This document shows positions 3,461 through 24,272 of a stretch of 64,000 bases of DNA, in pieces. This DNA is from Paludisphaera mucosa (GTDB lineage: Bacteria; Planctomycetota; Planctomycetia; Isosphaerales; Isosphaeraceae). Location: positions 1,974,808 to 2,038,807 of the forward strand of contig NZ_JARRAG010000001.1 of assembly GCF_029589435.1 (NCBI RefSeq). Reading direction: 5' to 3'. The notes beneath the pieces were generated by a model that made no database searches, had not been told where the DNA came from, and was given only the letters and a program-made list of their open reading frames with translations. Position 1 is the first letter of the stretch, and each line of letters begins with the position of its first letter. Both the position numbers and the translations under genes were made by a program.

Positions 3461-5491
3461 GTGAATCGCTGGATCACAGGAGCACTCGTGGCGACCTCGC
3501 TCGCGGCGAACTCGGCGGCGGCCGACAAACGGCCGATGACGATGGACGACCTGCTGGCCGTGATTGCGGTCGGCGACCCCCAGATCTCGCCCGACGGCGG
3601 GTCGGTCGTGTACACCGTCTCGGAGTACGACAAGGAAGCCGGCAAGTCCAACGGCAGCCTCTGGATCGTTTCGACGGGCGGCGGCGAGCCTCGCAAGCTC
3701 ACCTCCGCGCCGGGGTCGAACAACCACCCCCGCTGGAGCCCCGACGGCAAGACGATCGCGTTCGTCTCCTCGCGATCCGGCTCGTCGCAGATCTGGCTGC
3801 TGCCGATCGACGGCGGCGAGGCCCGGCAGCTCACCAAGCTGCCGATCGACGTCGACGGCCCGCTCTGGTCGCCCAAGGGGGACAAGATCGCCTTCGCCGC
3901 CCAGGTCTACCCGGGCAAGTCGCCCGCCGAGACGGCCGCCAAGGACAAGGAGAAGGAAGACGCCAAGAGCAAGGTCCGCATCTACGACCAGCTGATGGTC
4001 CGCCACTGGAACGCCTGGGACGAGGGGAAGAAGAGCCACCTCTTCGTCGCCGACGCGACCACCGGCGAGGCCGTCGACCTGACCCCCAAGCTGGATGTCA
4101 ACACCCCCCCCGCCCCGTTCGGCGGCTCCGGCGACTACGCCTGGTCCCACGACGGTTCCACGCTGGCGTTCACGGCCGAGCCGATCAAGGACCTGGCGTG
4201 GTCGACCAACACCGACGTCTGGACCGTCCCCGCCGCCGGCGGCGAGCCGAGGAACCTGACCGAGTCCAATCCCGCGGCCGACGGATCGCCGCTCTACTCT
4301 CCCGACGGCAAGTATCTCGCCTACCTCACTCAGGCCAGACCCGGCTTCGAGTCGGACCTGTGGGTCCTTCGCGTCCGCAACCTCGACACCGGCGAGGTGA
4401 TCGACGTCAGCTCGTTCCTCGATCGCCCGGTCCAGGGATTCGCCTGGAAGACGGCCGACAGTCTGGTCGCGTCGATCGACGATCAAGGCTCAGTCCCTAT
4501 CGTGAGCCTGAACGTCTCGGGGAATCGCGACAAGGTCCCCCGGTTGGCCGGCGGGGGCGTCAACGCGTCGCCGTCCGTCGGGCCCAAGGGCGAATCCGTC
4601 GCCTTCGTCCACCACTCGGCCGACAAGCCGGGCGAGGTCTATTTCAGGCAGAAGGACGGCGAGCCTCGGGCCCTGACCTCGCACAACGCCCCCCTGACCT
4701 CGAAGCTCGACCTGTCGCCGATGGAGTCCTTCACCTTCGACGGAGCCGAGGGCGACAAGGTGCAGGGATGGCTGCTCAAGCCGCCGGGGTTCGATCCGAA
4801 GAAGAAGTACCCGGTCGTCTTCCTGATCCACGGCGGGCCCCAGGGCGCCTGGCACGACGAGTGGCACGGTCGCTGGAATTACCCGATGTTCGCGGCTCCG
4901 GGCTACGCGGTCGTGGCGATCAACCCGCGGGGGTCGACGGGCTTCGGCCAGAAGTTCACCGACCAGATCAGCCTCGACTGGACCGGCAAGGTTTACGGCG
5001 ACCTTATGAAGGGGCTCGACCACGCGCTGGCGACATACGAGTTCCTGGACAAGGACAGGATCGCGGCGGCCGGCGGCTCGTACGGCGGGTTCATGGTCAA
5101 CTGGATCTGCGGCCACACCGACCGCTTCAAGGCCCTGGTCAGCCACGCGGGCGTCTTCGACCTGATCAGCATGTACGGCTCGACCGAGGAGCTTTGGTTC
5201 CCGGACTGGGAGTACGGCGGCCCGCCCTGGGTGAAGCTTCAGCACTACATCGACCGTTCGCCCAGCCTCTTCGCCGACAAGTTCAAGACGCCGACCCTGG
5301 TCATCCATGGGGCCCTCGACTTCCGCGTGCCGGACGCCCAGGGCCTCGGCATGTTCACGAGCCTCCAGCGCGTGGGCGTCCCCAGCCGCTACGTCTGGTT
5401 CCCGGACGAGGGCCATTGGATCGCCAAGCCGGCCAACCGGATCGTCTGGTGGGCCGAGATCCACGACTGGCTCGCCAGGTACCTGAAGTGA
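3461..5491 (+). CDS. S9 family prolyl oligopeptidase / acylaminoacyl-peptidase, secreted
   Basis: A 676-residue protein with a GTG start preceded by a strong Shine-Dalgarno (GGAGGAAA, about 6 bases upstream). A signal peptide covers roughly residues 1-21. Residues 30-400 hold repeated Ser-Pro-Asp-Gly blades of a TolB/WD-like propeller. The C-terminal hydrolase domain has the nucleophile motif GGSYGGF near residue 538, an acid in ALDFRVPD near 619 and the His in DEGHW near 650, completing the Ser-Asp-His triad. It likely cleaves short peptides outside the cytoplasm and feeds the POT transporter encoded just upstream. Confidence 0.93.
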   Translation: MNRWITGALVATSLAANSAAADKRPMTMDDLLAVIAVGDPQISPDGGSVVYTVSEYDKEAGKSNGSLWIVSTGGGEPRKLTSAPGSNNHPRWSPDGKTIAFVSSRSGSSQIWLLPIDGGEARQLTKLPIDVDGPLWSPKGDKIAFAAQVYPGKSPAETAAKDKEKEDAKSKVRIYDQLMVRHWNAWDEGKKSHLFVADATTGEAVDLTPKLDVNTPPAPFGGSGDYAWSHDGSTLAFTAEPIKDLAWSTNTDVWTVPAAGGEPRNLTESNPAADGSPLYSPDGKYLAYLTQARPGFESDLWVLRVRNLDTGEVIDVSSFLDRPVQGFAWKTADSLVASIDDQGSVPIVSLNVSGNRDKVPRLAGGGVNASPSVGPKGESVAFVHHSADKPGEVYFRQKDGEPRALTSHNAPLTSKLDLSPMESFTFDGAEGDKVQGWLLKPPGFDPKKKYPVVFLIHGGPQGAWHDEWHGRWNYPMFAAPGYAVVAINPRGSTGFGQKFTDQISLDWTGKVYGDLMKGLDHALATYEFLDKDRIAAAGGSYGGFMVNWICGHTDRFKALVSHAGVFDLISMYGSTEELWFPDWEYGGPPWVKLQHYIDRSPSLFADKFKTPTLVIHGALDFRVPDAQGLGMFTSLQRVGVPSRYVWFPDEGHWIAKPANRIVWWAEIHDWLARYLK

Positions 5492-5499
5492 GGCCGACC

Positions 5500-5528
5500 G
5501 GGGGAGGCGCGAACGCGTCGCCTCCCCC
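5500..5528. terminator. GC-rich hairpin between the S9 peptidase and ABC ATPase genes
   Basis: A perfect 10-bp inverted repeat: 5500-5509 (gggggaggcg) pairs with 5519-5528 (cgcctccccc) around a 9-base loop that itself contains acgcgt. It starts 9 bases after the peptidase stop and ends 21 bases before the GTG of the ATPase gene. There is no following T tract, so it may act as a weak terminator, an RNA 3'-end stabiliser or an attenuator between the two genes. Confidence 0.45.
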
Positions 5529-5549
5529 CCGCCCTCGCGGGAGACGCGC

Positions 5550-6329
5550 GTGATCGAGTTGCGCGACGTGACGCAGCACTACGGGGTGCGGCCGGTCGTC
5601 CGGTCGGTCAGCCTCCGCATCGAGCGCGGGGAGTTGGCGGTGATCCTGGGCCCGAACGGCATGGGCAAGTCGACGCTCCTGGGCGTGATGGCCGGCGTCC
5701 TCTCGCCCCAGGCCGGCAGCGTCCACGTCGACGGCATGCTCCGCAAGGGCGACCCCGAGGAAGAGCTGGCGATCCGCCGCCGCTGCGTCTACCTGCCCGA
5801 CAACCTCTGGATGCCCGAGCAGCACACCGGTCGCGAATACCTGCTCTCGGTCGGCCGGCTCTACGACGTCCACCCCGAGCGGGTCATGGAGCACGCCGAC
5901 CAACTCCTCGACCTCTTCGACCTCAAGGAAAAGGGCGAGAGCCCGATCGTCGGCTATTCGGCGGGCCAGAAGAAGAAGATCGCCCTGTGCTCGGCGCTCA
6001 TCACTGAGGCCCCGATCCTCCTTCTCGACGAGCCGTTCTCCGGCGGCCTGGATCCGGCGGGCCTGCTGACGCTCAAGAAGGTGTTCCAGCACCACGCCCG
6101 CAGCAAGCAGCTCACGATCGTGATGACCAGCCCCGTCCCCGAACTCGTCGAGGAGATCGCCACCCGGATCGTCATCATCCAGGACGGCCGCATCCTGGCG
6201 CAGGGGTCGCTCGACGACCTCCAGCGACTGACGGGATGTCGGGGTAGCCTGAGCGACGTCCTCGAGCGCCTGATCTTCCCCGACACCACGCGGAAGCTCG
6301 CCGAGTACTTCCAGGACTACCGGCGATGA
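5550..6329 (+). CDS. ABC transporter ATP-binding protein
   Basis: A 259-residue ABC ATPase with a GTG start. Walker A is GPNGMGKST near residues 36-44, the signature appears as YSAGQKKKI near 138, and Walker B is LLLDEPF near 157, followed by a D-loop and a His-containing switch region replaced by TSPVPELVEE. The short single-domain form resembles ATPases of ABC-2 type exporters. The stop overlaps the start of the next gene (ATGA), so the two are translationally coupled. No canonical ABC-2 permease is adjacent; the coupled membrane protein is the only candidate partner. Confidence 0.9.
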   Translation: MIELRDVTQHYGVRPVVRSVSLRIERGELAVILGPNGMGKSTLLGVMAGVLSPQAGSVHVDGMLRKGDPEEELAIRRRCVYLPDNLWMPEQHTGREYLLSVGRLYDVHPERVMEHADQLLDLFDLKEKGESPIVGYSAGQKKKIALCSALITEAPILLLDEPFSGGLDPAGLLTLKKVFQHHARSKQLTIVMTSPVPELVEEIATRIVIIQDGRILAQGSLDDLQRLTGCRGSLSDVLERLIFPDTTRKLAEYFQDYRR

Positions 6330-7543
6330 GGAGCCGCCTCCGGCTGGCCGCCCCGTGGAAGGCGCTCTTCACGCTGGCGATCGTCTTCGCCGTCTCGGCC
6401 GCGAGCATCCGTATTTTGCTCCCGCCGGGGGTCGGCCCCGAGTCCTACCGCTTCCCCACGGGGACGCTCTTCTTCGCCGCCGCGGCCTACGGGGTCTATC
6501 GGGCCTGCTACTTCCACCCCTATTTCCGATCCGGATACCGCGCGTGGCTGGCGACGACGCCGTGGACCGTCGACAAGCCCCTCCCTTTCGGGCCGATCGA
6601 GCTGGACTGGCCCGACGTCGTGGTCCTCGGCGCCTTGATCCTGATGTACGCCGTCGTCCCCGATCACCAGTCGGCGCGGATCATCGCCGTATTCCTGTTC
6701 TTCCACGGCCTGTTCCTGACGATCTCCATCTACAACGCGGCGAACCACGTCCCAGCCTACGCGGCGCTCTTCGGGCTCGGGCTGATGGTGCGGCTCTGGC
6801 CCCAGCCGTGGGCCTGCGCGCTCACGGGGGTCGTGGTCTACCTGATCGAGTACGACGGCCTGCGGATCTCGCTGCGGTCGTTCCCGTGGGCCGCCACGGA
6901 TTCGCCGACTCCCGTCGAGGATGCGGAGCGGACGACCTTCGACCCGGCGCGGGCCTCGTGCGGCTGGCCGTACGACCGCCTGCTCAAGGACCCCCAGCAG
7001 GCTCCCGGCGCGCCGGAGACGCGGCCCGAAGCCCCTTTCCGGCCCGCGGGGATCGGCACGAACCTCGAAGAGATGCCCTGGCACCGCCTGCTCGGCACGA
7101 AGCTCGACTATCTCATGTGGAGCCTGCTGCTGGGATGGTGGGCGTCCTGCTTCGGCCCCATCCTGGCCGAGCAGGACCGCTACCCGACTTTCCTTTCGAT
7201 CGCGACGCTCGCCGTCGTGTCGATCTCCTTCATCACCCGACTGTCCCTCTACAAGATGGGCTACGCCTCGCCGATCGGCGAATGGGGACGAATCCGGACC
7301 GGCCGTTGGATCATCCCGGGGCACGACGTCTTCGCCTTGGCCCTCGTCCTGATCCCGATCGCGCCCGCCCTGACCTTCTGGGGCTTGGTCGTCAACGGGG
7401 TTCCGTGGCGGATCGCCGGGCCGATCGCCTTGAGCGTCGCGCTCTTCGTCGCGCTGGCGACGCCGCCGGGGCTGCGACGCTGGCGGCTGGTGGGCCGACA
7501 CCGCCTGGTCCCGGGCCAGGCCCGGAGCGCCGCCGGATCGTGA
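6326..7543 (+). CDS. Polytopic membrane protein of unknown family, coupled to ABC ATPase
   Basis: A 405-residue protein whose ATG overlaps the TGA of the ATPase gene by four bases. By eye there are about eight or nine hydrophobic segments, at roughly residues 12-30, 47-63, 92-108, 115-135, 145-175, 253-270, 287-303 and 335-390. They are interrupted by a long hydrophilic loop (about 190-250) rich in Asp/Glu/Arg/Pro. I do not recognise a named domain. The coupling to an ABC ATPase suggests it is the membrane half of a transporter, but this is inferred from context only. Confidence 0.8.
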   Translation: MRSRLRLAAPWKALFTLAIVFAVSAASIRILLPPGVGPESYRFPTGTLFFAAAAYGVYRACYFHPYFRSGYRAWLATTPWTVDKPLPFGPIELDWPDVVVLGALILMYAVVPDHQSARIIAVFLFFHGLFLTISIYNAANHVPAYAALFGLGLMVRLWPQPWACALTGVVVYLIEYDGLRISLRSFPWAATDSPTPVEDAERTTFDPARASCGWPYDRLLKDPQQAPGAPETRPEAPFRPAGIGTNLEEMPWHRLLGTKLDYLMWSLLLGWWASCFGPILAEQDRYPTFLSIATLAVVSISFITRLSLYKMGYASPIGEWGRIRTGRWIIPGHDVFALALVLIPIAPALTFWGLVVNGVPWRIAGPIALSVALFVALATPPGLRRWRLVGRHRLVPGQARSAAGS

Positions 7544-7643
7544 GGCCCGATTCCGTCCTCACACGGCTTGTCGGACGTCCCCTCGATCTGGCAAGATCCT
7601 CGGTGTTTCGTGCGCCTTGGGGCTTTTCGAGGACGACCCGAAG

Positions 7644-9293
7644 ATGACCGCCACGCCTCCCGCCGGACAGCGACCGATCAGCGAAGTGGCCCGCGATCTC
7701 GACATCGCGCCCGACCACCTGGAGCCCTACGGGCGCGACAAGGCGAAGGTCCATCTCGACGTCCTCTCCTCGGGCCGCAAGCCGGGCAAGCTGATCCTCG
7801 TCTCGGCGATCACCCCCACGCCGGCCGGCGAGGGGAAGACGACGACCTCCATCGGCCTCGCGCAGGGCCTGCATCGGATCGGCAAGCGCGCGGCCCTGGC
7901 GCTGCGGCAGCCGTCGATGGGCCCGGTGTTCGGCCGCAAGGGGGGGGCGACGGGCGGCGGCCTCAGCAAGGTCGAGCCTTCCAACAAGATCAACCTCCAG
8001 TTCACCGGCGACTTCCACGCGATCACCGCCGCGCACAACCTGCTGGCCGCCGCCATCGACAACCGGCTCTACTTCCGCGACCTCGACCTCGATCCGACCC
8101 GCATCCTCTGGAAGCGGGCGCTCGACATGAACGACCGCTCGCTGCGGCGGATCGTCGTCGGCCTCGGCGGTCATTCCCAGGGGGTCCCGCGCGAGAGCGG
8201 GTTCGACATCACAGCGGCCAGCGAGGTCATGGCCATCCTCTGCCTCTCGGAGTCGCTCAGGGACCTCCGCGAGCGGCTCGACCGCATCCTGGTCGGCTAC
8301 GCCGGCGACGGCTCGCCGGTCCTGGCCAAGAGGCTGGGCGTCACGGGCGCGATGACGGCGATCCTCAAGGAGGCGATCCTCCCGAACCTCGTCCAGACGA
8401 CCGAGTCGACGCCCGCGTTCATCCACGGCGGCCCGTTCGCCAACATCGCCCACGGCTGCAACTCGGTCCTCGCCACCCGCATGGCGCTCGCCACGGCCGA
8501 CTACGCCGTCACCGAGGCCGGGTTCGCCTTCGACCTCGGCGGCGAGAAGTTCCTCGACCTCAAGTGCCGCTCGGCGGGGCTGAATCCGGCCGTGATCGTC
8601 CTGGTCGCCACGATCCGCGCGCTCAAGATGCACGGCGGCGTCCCCCTGCCCGACATCACGAAGACCGACGCCGCCGCCGTCGAGCGCGGCCTGGTCAACC
8701 TCGCGGCGCATCTCGACAGCGCCGAGCACTTCGGCAAGCCGGTCGTCGTCGCGATCAACCAGTTCGGGACGGATACGGCCGAAGAGGTCGGCGTGGTCGA
8801 GAATTTCTGCAAGGGCCGCAACATCCCCTGCTCTCCCGCTAACGTCTTCGGTGCGGGCGGCGAAGGCGCGATCGACCTGGCCGAGAAGGTCGTCGCCGCC
8901 GCGTCGTACCCCGAGACTCCCTACAAGCCGCTGTATCCGCTGGACTGGTCGGCCGAGAGGAAGATCGAGCAGATCGCCAAGGTCATGTACGGCGCGGCCG
9001 GCGTGAGCTTCCAGCAGATGGCCGAGCAGAAGCTCCGCAAGGCCGAGAAGCTCGGCTACGGCCAGTTGCCGATCTGCATGGCGAAGACGCAGGATTCGCT
9101 GTCGGACGACCCCAAGCGACGGGGCCGTCCACAGGGCTTCACGCTCCACGTCCGGGACATCGAAATCGCCGCCGGAGCGGGGTTCCTGGTCGCCCTCACC
9201 GGCGAGATCATGCGAATGCCGGGCCTGCCCCTGCGGCCCGCCGGCGAGCGTATCGATGTGGACGAGGCCGGCGAGATCACCGGGCTCTCGTGA
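7644..9293 (+). CDS. fhs: Formate--tetrahydrofolate ligase
   Basis: A 549-residue protein matching the usual 550-560 residues of formyltetrahydrofolate synthetase. It makes 10-formyl-THF from formate, ATP and THF in the cytoplasm. The N-terminal ISEVARDLDI block and the P-loop-like TPAGEGKTT (residues about 59-67) are diagnostic, as are the following GLA and LRQPSMGPVFGRKGGATGGG-type segment and the downstream HGGPFANIAHGCNS motif. The ATG at 7644 is preferred over an in-frame TTG nine codons upstream because GAGGA sits 7-11 bases before it. It ends 7 bases from the convergent TlpA-like gene. Confidence 0.97.
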   Translation: MTATPPAGQRPISEVARDLDIAPDHLEPYGRDKAKVHLDVLSSGRKPGKLILVSAITPTPAGEGKTTTSIGLAQGLHRIGKRAALALRQPSMGPVFGRKGGATGGGLSKVEPSNKINLQFTGDFHAITAAHNLLAAAIDNRLYFRDLDLDPTRILWKRALDMNDRSLRRIVVGLGGHSQGVPRESGFDITAASEVMAILCLSESLRDLRERLDRILVGYAGDGSPVLAKRLGVTGAMTAILKEAILPNLVQTTESTPAFIHGGPFANIAHGCNSVLATRMALATADYAVTEAGFAFDLGGEKFLDLKCRSAGLNPAVIVLVATIRALKMHGGVPLPDITKTDAAAVERGLVNLAAHLDSAEHFGKPVVVAINQFGTDTAEEVGVVENFCKGRNIPCSPANVFGAGGEGAIDLAEKVVAAASYPETPYKPLYPLDWSAERKIEQIAKVMYGAAGVSFQQMAEQKLRKAEKLGYGQLPICMAKTQDSLSDDPKRRGRPQGFTLHVRDIEIAAGAGFLVALTGEIMRMPGLPLRPAGERIDVDEAGEITGLS

Positions 9294-9300
9294 GTCTCGC

Positions 9301-11022
9301 TCAGCGAGTGGCGCGGCCCTTGGGCTCGCGCCGCGCGACGGTCGCCCGGGAGCCGTCGTCGAGGTGCTCGGCGATGGCCCGGTCGATGTTCGCCAGTGTC
9401 GCGGCGGTGGCCCCCTGCTCTCTCCGCAGGATGCGGCCCTCGCGGTCGATCAAGATCATGGTCGGATAGAACCAGACCTGCAGCGCCTCGCGGACCGGGC
9501 AGGCGTCGTCCATGCCGACGACCAGGACGGGGTAGTTGATCTTCAAGCCGTCGGCGACCTCCTTGACCTTCGCCGCCCGCTCCGGCTCCTTCGTCCGCTC
9601 GTAGGCCACGCTGACGACCTGGATCTTCTTGCCGCCCAGCCGCGCCTGGATCTCGCTGAGGTGGGGGATCGAAGTGCGGCAAGGCAGGCACCAGGTGCCC
9701 CAGAAATCCAGGAGGATCAGGTCGGCGTCGAAGTCGCGGATCGAGACCAGCTTCCCGCTCGTGTCGTAGAGCGCGAAGTCGGTGATCCGCCGTTCATCCG
9801 GGTCGTAATCGCAATACGGCGTCGTCCGCTCGACCTTCGCCGCAGCGGCCTTCGAGGTCCTGGCCGTAGTCGCGGCCGAGGCGACGACCGGGGCGGCCTT
9901 CGCGGCCCTGGCCGTGGCGACGACCGTGGCCTGAGTCTGGGCGAGGGCCTCGTCGACCGGGATGGAGTCGTTACTTGAGAGGACGTCCGACCAGGTCGGT
10001 CGGGCCTTCTCCGCCGTCGGGACGTCGGCGTTCGCCGGCCGTCGCGAACTCCGGGAGCCTGCGCGGGGTTTCGGTCTGGCCTCCTCCGCGGGCTCGGCGT
10101 CGTCGAGGATCACTGGGCCGAAGCGCTGGCCGCGGCCGCCTTCGATCACGCCGTCGGGCAGGCTGTGCGGTGGCTCGCCGTCGAGGCTCGCGTCGGGCTC
10201 GTCGGCGGGCGGAAGCTCGTCGCTGCGGGCGCTCACCTTGCTGATCTCGCGGGCCGGCGGCAAGGGGTTGTCGCCGTCGTCCTGGGAGTCCGCCGGCTCG
10301 TCGTCCGCGGCGTCCGCCGGCGGGGTGCGAGGGCGGGCGGCCTTCGAGGACCAGGCGGGGGTCGGCTCGTCGAGGTCCTCGGGGAGGGTCTCAAGTCGGG
10401 GCCTGACGGAGTTCGGACTTGCCGCCGTCCGGGGTTCGACGAGATCCGCGTCCTCTGGCTCGGCCGCCCCGTCCTTCTCCTCGGTCCGGCCGACGGATTT
10501 GACGCGGGCGTTCTCGGGGGCCGCGGCGACCTCGACGTCGTCGCCGGTCGCGGCGTCGCGGGGATGGAGGCTGATCCGAACGTCGGTGTCGGGGGCTTCG
10601 GCGGCGGCGCGGCCGGTCATCATCCCCTGCTCGCCCTGATACTCGGCGATCACCGTGTACGACGAGCCGGGACGGACACCCCGGAGCGTGAACGCGCCCG
10701 AACGGTCGGTCGTGGCGTGGACGACCTTGCCGCCCGCAGCCCCGGTGAGGGCGAGGCGGACGACGGCGTTGCGGGCCGGCTGGCCGTCGGCGTCGTAGAC
10801 GCGCCCCGATATCCGGCTCGTCGTCCTCGGCGGATCGGGCAGGACCGTCTCGGCCCGCTCATCGCCGGCGAGGCCCGCGACGACGGGCAAGGGCCTGTCG
10901 CCGACCGAGGCCGTCGTCTTGACGTCGGAGGGCGTCACGGCGCGGAATCCGCCGGTCTGCGAACATCCGACGAGGCCCACGCCCAGGATGAGCAGGCAGA
11001 GGATGCGGTGGGGTATGCGCAT
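9301..11022 (-). CDS. Lipoprotein with CarboxypepD_reg and TlpA-like thioredoxin domains
   Basis: A 573-residue protein. The ATG at 11022 has AGGAGGAGGG about 9 bases upstream and is followed by a lipoprotein signal ending in the lipobox VGCS (Cys about residue 17). Residues about 70-150 form a carboxypeptidase-regulatory-like beta-sandwich (ISGRVYDADGQPARNAVV). A long low-complexity linker rich in Asp/Glu/Pro/Ala follows. From about 430 there is a thioredoxin fold with the redox motif WCLPC in FWGTWCLPCRTS. It is likely a periplasmic thiol:disulfide reductase tethered to a membrane. Redox partners are not visible nearby. Confidence 0.88.
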   Translation of the reverse strand: MRIPHRILCLLILGVGLVGCSQTGGFRAVTPSDVKTTASVGDRPLPVVAGLAGDERAETVLPDPPRTTSRISGRVYDADGQPARNAVVRLALTGAAGGKVVHATTDRSGAFTLRGVRPGSSYTVIAEYQGEQGMMTGRAAAEAPDTDVRISLHPRDAATGDDVEVAAAPENARVKSVGRTEEKDGAAEPEDADLVEPRTAASPNSVRPRLETLPEDLDEPTPAWSSKAARPRTPPADAADDEPADSQDDGDNPLPPAREISKVSARSDELPPADEPDASLDGEPPHSLPDGVIEGGRGQRFGPVILDDAEPAEEARPKPRAGSRSSRRPANADVPTAEKARPTWSDVLSSNDSIPVDEALAQTQATVVATARAAKAAPVVASAATTARTSKAAAAKVERTTPYCDYDPDERRITDFALYDTSGKLVSIRDFDADLILLDFWGTWCLPCRTSIPHLSEIQARLGGKKIQVVSVAYERTKEPERAAKVKEVADGLKINYPVLVVGMDDACPVREALQVWFYPTMILIDREGRILRREQGATAATLANIDRAIAEHLDDGSRATVARREPKGRATR

Positions 11023-17036: not shown

Positions 17037-20000
17037 TTAATCAATGAAGACGCCGCTGACCACCGCGTTGACGCCGGCGGTCCTGGTGACGCGGAAGAGG
17101 ACGTGGCCCGAGACGTTCCAGGTCAGGTAGACGCCGCCGTTGAACGACGCGACGTCCCGCGTGTCGAGGACCTGCCCGGTCGCCGCGTCGACCACCTCGA
17201 TGCGCTGGGCCCGCGCCGAGCCGTCCCAGTCGACGGCGTAGAGCGAGACCCTGTGGGGCCTGCCGTCGGTCAGGTTGACGTCGATCGTGAACGCCGACGC
17301 CGAGTACCAGGTCGAGGCCTGCCGCCTCGCTCCGTCGGCCGTCTCCAGGGCCCGCGGGTCGGTCGTCGTCGCGGCCCAGGTGTAGGCCGCGGCCCCCGAG
17401 GTGGCGACGCTGGCGTAGGACGGCAGCGCCGAGGGGTTGTTGAGCATCAGCTGGCCGGTGCCGCCGTAGGCCCCGATCCAGTCCCCCTTCGTGGCCGCGT
17501 CCCTGCCCGCGTAAACCTGGCCGGCCGGGGCGTCGTCGAAGAAGACGCCGCTGACCACCGCGTTGACGCCGGCGGTCCTGGTGACGCGGAAGAGGACGTG
17601 GCCCGAGACGTTCCAGGTCAGGTAGACGCCGCCGTTGAACGACGCGACGTCCCGCGTGTCGAGGACCTGCCCGGTCGCCGCGTCGACCACCTCGATGCGC
17701 TGGGCCCGCGCCGAGCCGTCCCAGTCGACGGCGTAGAGCGAGACCCTGTGGGGCCTGCCGTCGGTCAGGTTGACGTCGATCGTGAACGCCGACGCCGAGT
17801 ACCAGGTCGAGGCCTGCCGCCTCGCTCCGTCGGCCGTCTCCAGGGCCCGCGGGTCGGTCGTCGTCGCGGCCCAGGTGTAGGCCGCGGCCCCCGAGGTGGC
17901 GACGCTGGCGTAGGACGGCAGCGCCGAGGGGTTGTTGAGCATCAGCTGGCCGGTGCCGCCGTAGGCCCCGATCCAGTCCCCCTTCGTGGCCGCGTCCCTG
18001 CCCGCGTAAACCTGGCCGGCCGGGGCGTCGTCGAAGAAGACGCCGCTGACCACCGCGTTGACGCCGGCGGTCCTGGTGACGCGGAAGAGGACGTGGCCCG
18101 AGACGTTCCAGGTCAGGTAGACGCCGCCGTTGAACGACGCGACGTCCCGCGTGTCGAGGACCTGCCCGGTCGCCGCGTCGACCACCTCGATGCGCTGGGC
18201 CCGCGCCGAGCCGTCCCAGTCGACGGCGTAGAGCGAGACCCTGTGGGGCCTGCCGTCGGTCAGGTTGACGTCGATCGTGAACGCCGACGCCGAGTACCAG
18301 GTCGAGGCCTGCCGCCTCGCTCCGTCGGCCGTCTCCAGGGCCCGCGGGTCGGTCGTCGTCGCGGCCCAGGTGTAGGCCGCGGCCCCCGAGGTGGCGACGC
18401 TGGCGTAGGACGGCAGCGCCGAGGGGTTGTTGAGCATCAGCTGGCCGGAGCCGCCGTAGGCCCCGATCCAGTCCCCCTTCGTGGCATCGTCCTTACCCGC
18501 GTAAACCTGATTGGCCGGGGCGTCGTCGAAGAAGACGCCGCTGATCAGGGCGTTGACGCCGGCCGTCTTCGTGACGCGGAAGAGGACGTGGCCCGAGACG
18601 TTCCACGAGAGGTAGATCCCGCCGCTGTAGGACGAGACGACTTTCGAGTCGAGGACCTGACCCGTCGCCGCGTCGATCAGGTCGATGCGCTGAATGTTCG
18701 AGGGGCCTCCCCAGTCGACGGCGTAGAGCGAGACCTTGTGGGACTTGCCGTCGGTCAGATTGACGTCGATCGTGAAGCCCGAAGAGGAGTACCAGGCCGA
18801 GGCCTGCCGCTTCGATCCATCGGGCGTCAGCAGGCCTCGGACGTTCGTCGTCGTCGCGGCCCAGGTCCAGGCGGAAGCCCCGGAGGTCGTGACCGAGGCA
18901 TAGGACGGCAGCGCCGAGGGGTTGTTGAGCATGAGCTGGCCGGAGCCGCCGTAGGTGCCGATCCAGTCGCCCCTCGTGGTCGTGTCCGCGCCCGAAGGCG
19001 GGGACGGTAGGGCCGCGTCGAAGAACACGCCGCTGACGACGGCGCTGGAGCTGGCCGTCGAGGTGATGCGGAAGAGGACGTGGCCGGAGACGTTCCACGT
19101 CAGATACACGCCGTCGCGGAAGGATGAGATGGACCGCGTGTCGAGGACCTGTCCCGTCGCCGCGTCGACGACGTCGATGCGCTCCGCCCGCCCGTTGCCG
19201 TCCCAGTCGACGGCGTAGAGCGTGGTCAGATGAGACTCTCCGGCCGCGAAATTGACGTCGATGGTGAACGAGGATGCGTACCACGCCGAGGCGATCCGGC
19301 CGCTCGTACTATTCGTCTTCTGGAGCGACTGGAAGTCGGTCGCGGACCGGTTCCAGATGAACGTCGAGGCGTTCGTGAGCGAGACGCTCGCGGATGGTGG
19401 ATACTGGCCGAAATCGCCGGCGATCACCGAGCCCTGGACGCCGTACTGACCCTTCCAGTTCCCGTTCGAAATCATAGACTGGACGAAGGCGGCCTGGGAC
19501 TGCTGGGTCGGCGCGCCGACCGAGATCGCCGCGGTGGAGACGGCCGATCGCCCCTGCGAGTCGACCGCCGTAACCGAGACGACGTAATTGCCGCTCCCGG
19601 TAGGTGCGAAGGCGAATGACTGGGCGGTGGTTGTCGAGATCGAAGTCCCGTCCTTGGTGACGGTCCAGGTGAGCGTGGGGGCCGGCGCGCCCGTGGAGCG
19701 GGCGTCCACCAGGCGGGCCTGGGCCCAGTCGGCCGGGATGGTGACGCTCGCGCCGGAGGGCGTCGTGACCACGAGCGAGAGGCTGGAGACGCCGGTGACG
19801 TCGACGTTGATGGGCAGGGCGGTCCCAGTCTGCATCACCGGCGAGGTGTACAGGACTCGGCCGTCGCCCACGAGTTGGAAAGTGGCCTGCCCCACGTTCG
19901 CGCCGGCCCGATCGTCGATGCCGATGGTCGCCGAGAAGCTCGTGTAGAGCCCCTGGAGCGGGACGACGATGGTCGAACTGCTGGATACGCCCAGGCCCCT

Positions 20001-21857
20001 GGGATAGGTGACGCCGCCGACCTGCAGCCCAGTCACGCCGGTGCTTCCGTTGAAGGCGCCGTTTTTCACGTACGACCCGCCGGCGACCACCGCCGAGGTG
20101 AAGGTGAAGTCGGCGAGGTTCTTCTGGTCGTAGACCTGGAAATCGACCGGCGCGGTCGCCGTGGTGGTGGCCGGCCGCAGGGCGACGGCGATCGCCGCGG
20201 CCTGATCCGCGGTGAGCGAGCCGACGTCGAGGTTCGCCAGCAGCGCGGAGAGGTCGGCCGCGTCGACCTTGCGGTCGTGGTTGAAGTCGCCCTGCTCCCA
20301 CCATTGCTCGACCCGGTTCATGTCCGCGGCGACGATCTGGAAGTCGTTGAAATCCACGTCGCCGTCGAGGTCCGCATCGCCGGGCTGGAGCACCGTGCTC
20401 ATCACGGCGTCCCATCGCTGGCTCCCCGGGGCGCCGACGTAAGGCTTGAGGCCCCAGAAGTCGGTGGTCAGCGTGAAAAGCGTCATGTTGCCGCCGCCCG
20501 CCGCCGTCCAGTTCGAGAGATACCTGCGGTAGGCGTCGTACATCCCGGGGTCTTCGATCGTCGCGGTCTGCACCGCGGCGTTGTTGACGGTCGTGAGGTG
20601 GGCGCCGCCTTCATAGGCGTCGAGCGGAAGGCCGTAGGCGGCCGCCGCCTGGACCTGCGACCGGATCGTCCCCGCCGAGGCGTCGATCTGCTGAATCGTC
20701 GACGCCAGCAGAGCGGCGGGGTCCGTCGTCGAATTCGCCACGGCGGGCGTCGGGCTCACATAGGGAGCGATCGCCACCGACTTGATGTACTGCGTCACGT
20801 CGCCGTAGAGGCGTTGGACGATTTCCAGGCCCGTCCTGGTGTACGTCGGCGAGATCGCCCAGCTGCCGAACACGGGGATGACGCGCGAGAAGTCGGGGCC
20901 GTACTCCTGACGGAAGATGTCGGAGAGACGTTTCGTCTGGAGGGCCGACTCCTGCGCGACCCTGTCCATGTCGTTCGTCGCCGTGACGCGCGTATCGGTC
21001 CTGGCCATGGCGAGGACCTGGGAATACTCGAGGAAAGCCTGGTTCCAGGTCTCGTTGCTGTACTCGAAGTGAACCTTGAGCCCGGCGTTCAGCTCGCTGT
21101 GCAGGAGGTCGGCGAGGTTGCGAACGTAGTCGTCGTCCGCCAGGGCGGCGACCGTGATCCACATGTCCTTCCCGGTCTCGTTGCACAGTTCGATCATCTG
21201 CTCATAAGGGACGTTCGATTTGAAGAAATCGTCCGCGACCGCCCGCTGCGACCAGGTTCGTACGGTGGAGTTGTTCGTGCCCTCCCAGGGCATGAAGCGG
21301 ATGTAGTCGAAGGGCTCGACCGACTTGAGGAACTCGCGCGTGAAGAGCTGGCTGCCGTCGGTCGGGTATCCGGGCGCCCAGATGTGCAGGTCGGACATCG
21401 GGTTCGTCGCGTCCGTCGAGATCACGGACATGAAGAGGTTGCGGGAGGGGTCGGTTATCCCCCCGGCGCCGACGATGACCGTGCCTCGCGTGACCCCGTC
21501 GGCCCCCTTCACCATGGGTGCGGCCAGGACGCCGACGCCCGAGAAATCGACCGACGCCGTCCCCTCGTAACTCACCTGATACACGCCGTCGGGATACTTG
21601 GCGAGAGTCGCGTAGGCGACGGCGGCCGCGAGCGGATAGCCCGTCGTCGTCTTCGGGATGCTCGGATCCGCCGACCATCCCGGGAGCGTGCTGACCTTGC
21701 TCCAGCCGTTCATGACCTGACCGATGTCGGTCCAGATCTCGTCCTGGTCCCAGGGGTAGTTGTGCTCGAGGTTCACGCCTACGCCGCTGAGGAGCGCGCG
21801 TCGCTCCATTTGTTCGAAGCCCGGCCGACGGCCGGGCCTTCGTCCCAGTCTCTTCAT
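17037..21857 (-). CDS. Giant exoprotein: glycoside-hydrolase-like domain, dockerin repeats, NPCBM-like domain and five beta-sandwich repeats
   Basis: A 1606-residue extracellular protein. Residues about 12-25 carry the planctomycete exoprotein motif FEQMERRALLSG after a basic start. Residues about 30-480 resemble a TIM-barrel hydrolase with a possible acid/base Glu in EYSNETWN near 266. Around 490-545 are two dockerin/EF-hand-like loops (DADLDGDVD and DFNHDRKVD). About 570-705 is NPCBM-like (a conserved galactose-binding-like fold). A PKD-like segment follows to about 780. The remaining 820 residues are five 164-165-residue repeats containing AVDWDG and NVSGHVLFR. The last three are nearly identical. 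A GAGG is placed 6-9 bases before the ATG. Confidence 0.88.
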   Translation of the reverse strand: MKRLGRRPGRRPGFEQMERRALLSGVGVNLEHNYPWDQDEIWTDIGQVMNGWSKVSTLPGWSADPSIPKTTTGYPLAAAVAYATLAKYPDGVYQVSYEGTASVDFSGVGVLAAPMVKGADGVTRGTVIVGAGGITDPSRNLFMSVISTDATNPMSDLHIWAPGYPTDGSQLFTREFLKSVEPFDYIRFMPWEGTNNSTVRTWSQRAVADDFFKSNVPYEQMIELCNETGKDMWITVAALADDDYVRNLADLLHSELNAGLKVHFEYSNETWNQAFLEYSQVLAMARTDTRVTATNDMDRVAQESALQTKRLSDIFRQEYGPDFSRVIPVFGSWAISPTYTRTGLEIVQRLYGDVTQYIKSVAIAPYVSPTPAVANSTTDPAALLASTIQQIDASAGTIRSQVQAAAAYGLPLDAYEGGAHLTTVNNAAVQTATIEDPGMYDAYRRYLSNWTAAGGGNMTLFTLTTDFWGLKPYVGAPGSQRWDAVMSTVLQPGDADLDGDVDFNDFQIVAADMNRVEQWWEQGDFNHDRKVDAADLSALLANLDVGSLTADQAAAIAVALRPATTTATAPVDFQVYDQKNLADFTFTSAVVAGGSYVKNGAFNGSTGVTGLQVGGVTYPRGLGVSSSSTIVVPLQGLYTSFSATIGIDDRAGANVGQATFQLVGDGRVLYTSPVMQTGTALPINVDVTGVSSLSLVVTTPSGASVTIPADWAQARLVDARSTGAPAPTLTWTVTKDGTSISTTTAQSFAFAPTGSGNYVVSVTAVDSQGRSAVSTAAISVGAPTQQSQAAFVQSMISNGNWKGQYGVQGSVIAGDFGQYPPSASVSLTNASTFIWNRSATDFQSLQKTNSTSGRIASAWYASSFTIDVNFAAGESHLTTLYAVDWDGNGRAERIDVVDAATGQVLDTRSISSFRDGVYLTWNVSGHVLFRITSTASSSAVVSGVFFDAALPSPPSGADTTTRGDWIGTYGGSGQLMLNNPSALPSYASVTTSGASAWTWAATTTNVRGLLTPDGSKRQASAWYSSSGFTIDVNLTDGKSHKVSLYAVDWGGPSNIQRIDLIDAATGQVLDSKVVSSYSGGIYLSWNVSGHVLFRVTKTAGVNALISGVFFDDAPANQVYAGKDDATKGDWIGAYGGSGQLMLNNPSALPSYASVATSGAAAYTWAATTTDPRALETADGARRQASTWYSASAFTIDVNLTDGRPHRVSLYAVDWDGSARAQRIEVVDAATGQVLDTRDVASFNGGVYLTWNVSGHVLFRVTRTAGVNAVVSGVFFDDAPAGQVYAGRDAATKGDWIGAYGGTGQLMLNNPSALPSYASVATSGAAAYTWAATTTDPRALETADGARRQASTWYSASAFTIDVNLTDGRPHRVSLYAVDWDGSARAQRIEVVDAATGQVLDTRDVASFNGGVYLTWNVSGHVLFRVTRTAGVNAVVSGVFFDDAPAGQVYAGRDAATKGDWIGAYGGTGQLMLNNPSALPSYASVATSGAAAYTWAATTTDPRALETADGARRQASTWYSASAFTIDVNLTDGRPHRVSLYAVDWDGSARAQRIEVVDAATGQVLDTRDVASFNGGVYLTWNVSGHVLFRVTRTAGVNAVVSGVFID
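17047..18531. repeat. Three tandem 495-bp repeats, essentially identical
   Basis: Units 17047-17541, 17542-18036 and 18037-18531 encode the C-terminal three 165-residue modules of the exoprotein. Reading base by base, units 1 and 2 appear identical throughout, and unit 3 appears identical to them until about 18448, after which several substitutions begin. The period is a multiple of three, so copy-number changes keep the frame. Lack of synonymous differences implies very recent duplication or ongoing gene conversion. Confidence 0.9.
18532..19500. repeat. Two diverged units of the same repeat family
   Basis: Two further modules of 492-495 bases lie upstream in the coding sense (18532-19020 and about 19021-19500). 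They keep the same conserved phrases (DWIG.YGGSGQLMLNNPSALPSYASV in one, SFTIDVN, AVDWDG and SGHVLFR) but differ at many codons. They show that the repeat family is old and that only the last three copies were recently homogenised. Confidence 0.75.
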
Positions 21858-22544
21858 ATCATCCTCATAGGGCTAGCAGGTTGCGGATCGTCGCTGAGGA
21901 GCCCTTCGCAGGGCGCAGAGGGGCCGGGAGAGGCCCCGGTCGGCTGTCGTCGTCGACCGAAGAGAGCGCGCAGAAGCGGCCGCACGGAGTCGGCGGATCC
22001 GCTTCATGCATGTAGACACATTTGTAATAGAATTTGATTACAGGTTGGCGACCTACGAGTCTATCAGCAGGTAGCCGGAATTAAAGCATGTCGCATATTT
22101 TGTCGATCCGTGCGTACATTGATCTATTCATAGCGATCGCCACGACGCGAGTGAGCATGGCTGGAGGCTCACAAATCGGGATCTCGGTCGGACATGAGAC
22201 TTAAAGACCTGAAATCGGAATCACCTCAAATAATTTAAACATCATAATTCACCGGTCCTGATCGGACCTCGCCGCCCGATCTCCGCGAGGGTGGAGACGT
22301 CGTCCCGCGGTCCGGAGGTGCGCCGAGGCCTTCCCGCCCGGCCGCGTCCGGAGGATAATTCATCGGGAAGCTGCGCGAGGTTTCGGGGACTCTTCGACCC
22401 GCCCCGGCTCCCTGGTTCGACGTGCGATCGGACGGCGGATCGATCGACGGATCGACCATTTCCCCGGTCGAGGACGGATGCGGGCTTCCGAGTGACGGAA
22501 TTTCTCGGGAACCGCCCGGCCCCCAGGAGCGTCCAAGACTCCAA
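21858..22544. other. 687-bp intergenic region, AT-rich in its centre
   Basis: This region separates the divergent exoprotein (minus) and ECF sigma (plus) genes. Positions about 22010-22250 are clearly AT-richer than the surrounding GC-rich coding sequence, with runs such as tttgtaatagaatttgatta and aaataatttaaacatcata. No convincing ORF with a ribosome binding site and no clean -35/-10 pair was found. It probably holds the promoters and control sites of both flanking genes. From about 22260 to the sigma start the composition returns to GC-rich. Confidence 0.5.
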
Positions 22545-23171
22545 ATGACGCGGAACCTCGACGAAACCAGTCTCGTGCAAGCGTGTCGCGCCGGCCGGAC
22601 CGAGGCCTACGGCGAGCTGGTCGAGCGCTGCCAGGACAGGCTCTATCCGATGTTGCTGCGTCTCCTGGGCTCCCCGGAGGACGCCCAGGATGTGCTCCAG
22701 GATGCGTTCATCCGCGGTTTCGAGAAGCTGGACCAGTATCAGGGGGAGAGCACCTTCTACACCTGGATGTACCGGATCGCCGTGAACCTCGCGATGAGTC
22801 GCCTGCGCAGGCCTCGTCTCCGCCGCCTGCTGCGGCTGCTCGACGCGCATCGAGGTCGGCCCGCTCTCGACCCGCCCGACGAGTCGCCGTCGAGCACTCC
22901 TTCCTATGCGGCCGAGCGTGCGGAGCGTGAGGCGATCGTCGGGGCGGCGCTCGCGGCCCTGGATCCGGACCACCGGGCGGTGGTGGTCCTCAAGGATTAT
23001 GAGGGTCGACGGTACGAGGAGATCGGCGAGCTGCTCGGCGTGCCGATCGGCACGGTCCGAAGCCGTCTCCATCGGGCCCGCCATCAATTGCGGCTTCGGC
23101 TCCAATCGCTGATCGAGGATGAGCGACCCTCACGACCGATCCTCCCCGGCGTGGAAAAGGCCCTCTCCTGA
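22545..23171 (+). CDS. ECF RNA polymerase sigma factor
   Basis: A 208-residue sigma-70 family protein. The ATG at 22545 starts MTRNLDETSLVQACRAG, the usual ECF N-terminus; an upstream in-frame extension is Pro/Gly/Arg rich and looks non-coding. Region 2 includes AYGELVERCQDRLY, then LLGSPEDAQDVLQDAFIRGFEKLDQYQGESTFYTWMYRIA, with the typical core-binding and -10 recognition residues. Region 4 (about 135-185) holds the helix-turn-helix YEEIGELLGVPIGTVRSRLHRAR. It is followed 57 bases later by a putative anti-sigma gene, the usual arrangement for stress-type control. Confidence 0.95.
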   Translation: MTRNLDETSLVQACRAGRTEAYGELVERCQDRLYPMLLRLLGSPEDAQDVLQDAFIRGFEKLDQYQGESTFYTWMYRIAVNLAMSRLRRPRLRRLLRLLDAHRGRPALDPPDESPSSTPSYAAERAEREAIVGAALAALDPDHRAVVVLKDYEGRRYEEIGELLGVPIGTVRSRLHRARHQLRLRLQSLIEDERPSRPILPGVEKALS

Positions 23172-23228
23172 CCCCGGCGCCCCGCGGCGGGCGCCCTCCA
23201 CCGAATCTCAACGACCTCAAAGATCATC

Positions 23229-24272
23229 ATGAGCGACGACCTCGAGACACTGATCTCGGCCTACCTGGACGACGAGCTGACGCCCGAACAACGGCGCGAG
23301 GCGGAAGCGGCGGTCGCCGCCGAGCCGACGAGGGCCGACGAGCTGCGTTCGCTCGGGGCCGTTCACGAGCTGCTCGCCGCACTTTCTCGGCCCGCCGCCC
23401 CCGACATGACGGGAAGAGTGCTGGCGAGGCTCGCCGCATCGCCGTCGCCGACGTGGGGGGACATCCGCGCCTTCCCCGCAGTTCCCGCCCTCCGTCGCGC
23501 AGCGGCTGCGGCCGTGCTGGTCGCCGGATTCCTCGGCGTGCTGGCCGTGGCCCGCTTCCGGGGCGATCGGCGGCCGGATCATCCGATATCGGCACGCCCA
23601 ATCGTCCCCCCGGTCGCGATCGCCGAGCCGGCCGTCGCTCGCGATCCGGTCGCCGTCGTCGATCCCATCGGGCCGCCGACATCGGTCGCCGGAGCGGGAT
23701 CCGGCGTCTTCGACCCGCCCAGCCCCACTTACCCGGCCCGACTCGTCGCTCGCGAGCTGCTGGACCGTCCCGGGCCGTATCGCGTATTCCTGGTCTCGGG
23801 CGTCGACGACCAGGCCAAGGATGCGGAAGTGGCCTCGCTTCTCGGGCTTTCGTCCCACCGCGATTTTTACCGTTTCGACGTGCCGGCGGGGGAAAGTCCC
23901 AGGACGCCGCGCTCGTTAGTCTACGCGGCCGAACTGGACCCGAATGAGCTTTCCACCCTGCGGTCGCGTCTCGCGGCGGCCTTCCCGGGACGTCTCGACG
24001 AGGGGAATTCGGCAGCTTTACTCATGAGCGAGCTGTCGCAGCTCGGCCAGGCGACGACCTTTCGGGCCGATCCGGCGGCCGAGGTCCTCTTTCCCCAGAC
24101 GAAGATGGCTCTCCGGCTCCCCGCCGAGCCTCCTCAACCCGGCGGGCCGCAACGAGGCGAGGGAACGCTCGCGGCCGAAGACCCGGTCCGTCCCGGACAA
24201 GCCTCCCTGGTCGGTCCCCCCGAGCCGTCGTCGGTCGTCCTGATCTGGATGCTCGGAGCCGTTCCGGATTGA
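23229..24272 (+). CDS. Putative membrane anti-sigma factor
   Basis: A 347-residue protein. Residues 1-50 resemble the anti-sigma N-terminal fold (LISAYLDDELTPEQRREAEAAV) that binds the cognate sigma, though the zinc-binding His-x3-Cys-x2-Cys is missing. A single transmembrane helix lies around residues 92-110 (AAAAVLVAGFLGVLAVARF). The periplasmic part of about 230 residues contains a structured segment (YRVFLVSGVDDQAKDAEVASLL) and a Pro-rich end. Position directly after the ECF sigma gene supports the role. What signal it senses is unknown. Confidence 0.8.
   Translation: MSDDLETLISAYLDDELTPEQRREAEAAVAAEPTRADELRSLGAVHELLAALSRPAAPDMTGRVLARLAASPSPTWGDIRAFPAVPALRRAAAAAVLVAGFLGVLAVARFRGDRRPDHPISARPIVPPVAIAEPAVARDPVAVVDPIGPPTSVAGAGSGVFDPPSPTYPARLVARELLDRPGPYRVFLVSGVDDQAKDAEVASLLGLSSHRDFYRFDVPAGESPRTPRSLVYAAELDPNELSTLRSRLAAAFPGRLDEGNSAALLMSELSQLGQATTFRADPAAEVLFPQTKMALRLPAEPPQPGGPQRGEGTLAAEDPVRPGQASLVGPPEPSSVVLIWMLGAVPD

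Follow-up and report, generated by a model that had tools for sequence, protein, structure and literature searches.

A predicted exported glycosidase-like protein of Paludisphaera mucosa with a C-terminal module array probably renewed by recombination

A gene of the planctomycete Paludisphaera mucosa (17037-21857, minus strand), located in the window, i.e. the whole stretch of 64,000 nucleotides that was analysed, encodes a predicted exported multi-domain protein which ends in five tandem modules, three of them almost identical at the DNA level. The gene is defined by an open reading frame of 1606 amino acids and by its orthologues. We give a probability of roughly 0.7 to the reading that its product is a secreted, glycosidase-like enzyme whose C-terminus carries an array of carbohydrate-binding beta-sandwich modules, and that the array is renewed by recombination.

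Domain layout of the array gene

The five modules of about 149 amino acids, connected by short linkers, are preceded in the protein by the N-terminal start, a domain resembling glycoside hydrolases of clan A (residues 26-490; 20388-21782), a dockerin-like stretch (residues 492-540; 20238-20384) and an NPCBM domain (residues 579-716; 19710-20123), in this order, all encoded on the minus strand. The NPCBM domain was assigned by Pfam above the cut-off (PF08305, E 2.7e-28); the dockerin-like stretch matched Dockerin_1 of the same database below it (E 0.01, 16.5 bits vs the curated cut-off of 22.9). The N-terminus is a planctomycete-type start with the motif ERRALLSG, which we take to be export-related. 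Module 1 (19017-19463), delimited by module matches, is the oldest according to the module tree. It is followed by the older module 2 (18525-18971) and by the near-identical modules 3 (18030-18476), 4 (17535-17981) and 5 (17040-17486), the last of which directly abuts the stop codon (17037-17039).

The Pfam scan of the whole 1606-residue protein detected no wall or membrane anchor family after the array. A surface protein, as proposed in an earlier, sequence-only reading of this DNA, is not indicated by this; the array gene product is a predicted secreted glycosidase-like enzyme, which might be attached by other means. Weak Pfam matches within the repeats (DUF4984, Abhydrolase_4, PepSY and others) were dropped as repeat noise, because no single stretch passes alone or the score is below the cut-off. 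When the whole protein was searched against NCBIfam, the only match was weak and unrelated; the matches to PDB sequences fell mainly in the NPCBM part, and the others were weak.

The N-terminal domain (residues 26-490) was modelled by AlphaFold2 with a mean pLDDT of 87.1, and the model has the barrel fold of glycoside hydrolase clan A. Its closest fold match was GH51 (Z 22.7, rmsd 3.3 over 288), followed by GH79, GH39 and GH5. Enzymes of clan A have two catalytic glutamates, one at the end of strand 4 and the other at the end of strand 7. E269 in YSNETWN and E416 in YEGG are invariant in 13/13 alignment rows, as is the Asn at 268 which precedes E269, and the two glutamates are candidates for the catalytic residues, judged by motif.

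Upstream of the array gene, a divergent ECF sigma factor gene is followed by a gene for a zinc-finger anti-sigma-like protein (22422-24272). This ECF sigma factor may regulate the array gene.

Age of the near-identical modules

At a period of 495 nt, positions 17046-17953 are identical to 17541-18448 without a break (908 nt). By self-comparison at this period, the exact periodicity covers 17046-18448 (1403 nt or 2.83 copies) and the identity stops at 17954/18449; Tandem Repeats Finder reported 4.4 copies with a period of 495 at 17046-19222. The sequence-only reading had described three consecutive identical 495-bp copies, with the third diverging after about 18448, and both the identity and the divergence point were confirmed. 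The order of the copies, however, has to be corrected, since the gene lies on the minus strand: the identical copies are modules 3, 4 and 5 of five, and the copy counted as the third is the first of them in the coding order.

When the unit is started at the module, modules 3 and 4 differ in 1 nt (codon 10), and modules 4 and 5 differ in 5 nt within codons 148-150, at the stop-codon end; the latter pair has one synonymous and one replacement difference, both in the last codons. The nucleotide identity among the three modules is 99.3-99.8%. Pairwise comparison showed the remaining copies to be widely different, as the earlier reading had stated for two older copies of the gene: modules 1 and 2 share 53% of amino acids and 64.4% of nucleotides, and modules 2 and 3 share 76 and 83.2%, respectively.

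Synonymous differences between the copies, a count of which had been proposed in that reading, were determined at fourfold sites. No fourfold site differs between modules 3 and 4 (0/97) or between modules 4 and 5 (0/98), i.e. 0/195 together, so that the young copies diverge at fourfold sites by at most 1.5% (95% upper bound). In the older pair of modules 2 and 3, 16 of 74 such sites differ; at this rate, 0/97 would be found with a probability of about 5e-11. Since fourfold sites are unchanged in the young pairs and not in the older pair, the identity reflects recency, and constraint at the protein level cannot explain it. The notion that a strong constraint at the nucleotide level keeps the copies identical is scarcely credible either. 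It has no support besides the identity itself, the fourfold differences between modules 2 and 3 are found within the same gene, and module 3 shares 30-76% identity with the 71 further rows of the module alignment. A scan of the 64-kb window for exact direct 40-mers lying 60-4000 bp apart gave matches in this array only.

We also consider it improbable that the array is an assembly artefact with a wrong copy number and with identical copies made in part by the assembler. Draft genomes of relatives do break at such arrays (at 4/34 module sites the nearest contig edge is no more than 150 bp away, against an expectation of 0.31), so that the module counts of such genes in drafts are unreliable and can be lower bounds. 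The concern about assemblies raised in the earlier reading is fair to this extent. The phenomenon is not only an artefact, however: exact pairs are present inside a 10.37-Mb contig of the relative G028 (loci L060 and L064), and a pair with 97.7% nucleotide identity is present in a chromosome-sized contig of the same-genus relative G001. The window array, counted as five modules in this assembly, is interior to a 2.36-Mb contig, and its copies can be told apart by changes at either end of the tract.

Orthologues and the origin of the array

The N-terminal 800 residues are 50-61% identical to the products of genes in the five same-genus genomes examined, and these orthologues share neighbours in all five. 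Close matches to the ECF sigma factor, a family-2 glycosyltransferase and an ABC transporter gene were found at the locus in 5/5 genomes and a close match to the downstream HEAT-repeat gene in 4/5; in the remaining genome, a contig edge interrupts the array. The window gene and its G005 orthologue carry five modules, those of G001 and G003 four, that of G002 two and that of G004, which is cut, at least four.

A tree was constructed from the 24 modules of the window gene and the five same-genus orthologues, with one genome per species. One branch (99/95) separated the six first modules and module 2 of G002 from the other 17 modules. The last two modules paired within G001 (100/100), G003 (100/99) and G004 (86/77), and modules 2-5 clustered within G005 (100/99) and within the window gene (87/92), where modules 3-5 formed a cluster of their own (99/92). 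A constrained tree with the six last modules as a single clade, a test posed after a first tree had been seen, was rejected with p-AU of 2e-32 and a cost of 413 log units. The six first modules did not form a clade by themselves in the tree, in which module 2 of G002 joined them; such a clade was present in 4% of the bootstrap trees, but it was not rejected (p-AU 0.116). As the first modules cluster across species and the distal modules mostly within species, the module at position 1 appears to be an old, inherited one, and the distal part seems to have been remade separately in the lineages. Among the five orthologues with at least four modules, the closest pair was the last one in G001, G003 and G004; in the window gene the last two pairs were equally close, and in G005 modules 3 and 4 were the closest. 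The species-specific distal clusters and the unchanged fourfold sites support the recent expansion or gene conversion suggested by the sequence-only reading.

To read the triplication named there as a single step is probably too simple. Modules 3 and 4 differ at 8 positions in a 78-nt leader, which consists of 16 linker codons and the first ten codons of the module, and at none in the other 417 nt. If the differences were evenly spread, all eight would fall within the leader with a probability of 4e-7, a value which applies to a stretch picked after inspection of the data. The leaders probably diverged before the module bodies became identical. Divergent leaders next to identical bodies point to two events or more, or to the homogenisation of a pre-existing array, and not to one triplication.

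Turnover of the tail is recurrent and most likely due to recombination. Homologous recombination between adjacent copies, i.e. unequal crossing-over and/or gene conversion, would repeatedly add, remove and homogenise modules, in this gene the distal ones. We infer that these changes are driven by recombination and not by slippage.

A second array was found in the same genome, at a distance of about 1.5 Mb, in a subtilase gene (Peptidase_S8, E 6e-57) which ends in four module copies with a period of 495 and with one synonymous difference over all four modules. The presence of this near-exact array and the occurrence of the modules in unrelated enzyme classes might indicate that the modules were copied in from a paralogous array elsewhere, by ectopic conversion or with a mobile cassette. 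We regard this as highly improbable, however. The two arrays share 52% of amino acids only, far below the identity within each of them, so that neither is a recent copy of the other, and searches of the organism's own genome found no other close copy. The only further module found there by the module searches is a single, strongly diverged one near the C-terminus of an 827-residue frame (L083, 5467-5922; about C1:1403463-1403921).

Module fold, proposed function and recurrence

AlphaFold2 predicted a beta-sandwich for module 3 with a mean pLDDT of 97.1. The best structural neighbour was a Bacteroides beta-glucuronidase, matched in a C-terminal part (Z 10.8, rmsd 3.0 over 119), and the others included a malectin-like receptor, malectin domains, CBM35 and CBM6 (Z 8.5-9.1 for the last two) as well as those parts of clostridial binary toxins that bind the receptor (Z 8.7-9.9), all with a modest margin, Z of 7-8 being the typical best value of the tool for queries with no clear match. 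The CBM35 structure 2w1w was found by Foldseek with E 2.1e-5 (Z 9.1, rmsd 3.2 over 114). Among the matches listed, TM scores of about 0.4-0.6 and identities of 6-18% indicate a shared fold only. The window module matched no Pfam family at E 0.01, and 72 module members gave two weak Pfam matches, with one member each.

The module is similar to CBM35-, CBM6- and malectin-type modules in its predicted beta-sandwich fold and in being joined to a glycosidase-like domain, but differs from them by matching no Pfam family and by its presence also on proteases. The combination of a glycosidase-like domain, an NPCBM domain and a CBM-like array fits a multivalent carbohydrate-binding tail. We read the array as a renewable tail of this kind, the copy number of which would set avidity. 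Individual modules would bind carbohydrate, more copies would confer higher avidity and the array would keep the enzyme on a polysaccharide or on the producer's own matrix.

Alternatively, the array might be a spacer or stalk, the repeat number of which sets the reach of the N-terminal enzyme. Such an arrangement is known from the Periscope Proteins (SasG, Aap, Rib, Sgo_0707), in which tandem folded domains of more than 50 residues are encoded by near-identical DNA, the repeat number varies among homologues and intragenic recombination was proposed; these proteins have adhesin domains N-terminally and are anchored to the wall at the C-terminus, or by an outer-membrane barrel in Gram-negatives (excerpts of PMC8201768, PMC9704523). 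The window array resembles what these excerpts describe in its tandem modules of 149 amino acids with a predicted fold and in its near-identical DNA. The module number ranges from 2 to 5 across species of the genus, which may be a counterpart of the varying repeat number, and one relative even has 12 modules (L062). Unlike the Periscope Proteins, the window gene of a planctomycete host combines an enzyme-like N-terminal part, which is not a recognised adhesin, with a free C-terminal array: the stop codon follows module 5 directly, and nothing visible holds the far end. The attachment beyond the stalk which characterises the Periscope Proteins was thus not found, and we consider a stalk possible but rather doubtful in comparison with the carbohydrate-binding tail.

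Tandem BACON repeats of crAss-like phages are also arrays of a carbohydrate-binding-type domain, but they belong to a phage protein and the domain is a different one (excerpt of PMC6949934). Protein domain repeats in general often expand by several domains at once and often in the middle of the array (excerpt of PMC1553488). The window array shares internal tandem duplication with these, but single modules look renewed, mostly distally.

The module is present in 14/59 close genomes and in 16/294 genomes of the phylum (even draw, E 1e-10), the window's own genome being included in both counts. In total, 139 module matches were found in the window, the second-array region and 40 fetched regions. 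Matches shorter than 136 amino acids were excluded (for example in L071, L072, L076, L079 and L082), and weaker matches in G003:C57:100857, G004:C75, G005:C6, G005:C15, G031 and G051 also lie outside the counts. Array genes, defined by at least two full-length modules, numbered 38. Eight of them, from 5/10 genomes, contain a consecutive pair with at least 97% nucleotide identity and the other 30 contain none; all arrays with several modules in G016 are diverged. The modules are attached to S8, aspartyl-protease, beta-helix and GH-like parts, and 33 of the 49 module-bearing ORFs of at least 300 amino acids end 0-1 residues past the last module (two of them only through a contig end). As judged from this sequence context, the modules are an attachment common to different predicted exported proteins.

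The length-variable tandem-domain proteins in the parts of the literature consulted are surface adhesins and biofilm proteins, and among the matches listed from open-licence literature, titles and abstract openings described no planctomycete arrays of this kind. In planctomycetes, this DNA signature is seen on enzymes that are predicted to be exported and have a free end, and it recurs in more than one gene and species; the phenomenon would thereby be extended to enzymes that degrade polysaccharides. Tail length and stickiness may evolve quickly. A broader proposal, which we consider unlikely, is that a self-renewing C-terminal adhesion tail is carried by secreted enzymes of this planctomycete family, with a stable module 1 and distal modules constantly replaced by recombination. 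In a population, several exported enzymes would then each occur in different lengths at the same time, which would tune their stickiness. If this were true, it would be a length-variation system without a surface anchor, acting on enzymes rather than on adhesins.

A general C-terminal polarity of expansion was not supported: in 21 arrays of at least three modules, the closest pair by dN was the last in 9, the first in 6 and a middle one in 6, with ties (e.g. the four identical copies in L009) assigned to one pair. A scan for exact 40-mers (60-4000 bp apart) in 671,823 bases of the window and the fetched loci found the longest matches within the module; these loci were chosen for carrying it and the scan therefore gives no background rate of such repeats. 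The only other exact run longer than 400 nt belongs to a different array with a 555-bp period in L046 (2550-4230, on an 86-kb contig of G001), which is exact over 1126 nt and lies in a frame of at least 3845 amino acids with fibronectin-III, NPCBM, cadherin-like and PKD domains.

The twelve-module array of L062 (G028, 3734-9715) has a regional pattern of its own. Residues 58-149 of its copies 3-11 are nearly identical, whereas residues 1-57 are diverse, synonymous sites included: in the nine copies m3-m11 (m12 excluded), synonymous differences amount to 0.159 in residues 1-57 and 0.032 in the rest. Positive selection was considered and rejected, as pN/pS is 1.16 (bootstrap 0.64-2.22) in residues 1-57 and 1.45 (0.57-5.94) in the rest, both intervals including 1. 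Since the synonymous differences are also concentrated in residues 1-57, regional homogenisation suffices without selection. The same trend was seen, in a weaker form, over 23 near pairs of 12 genes. In L071 (6593-8125, G016), in-frame stop codons split the module array of an apparently decayed gene.
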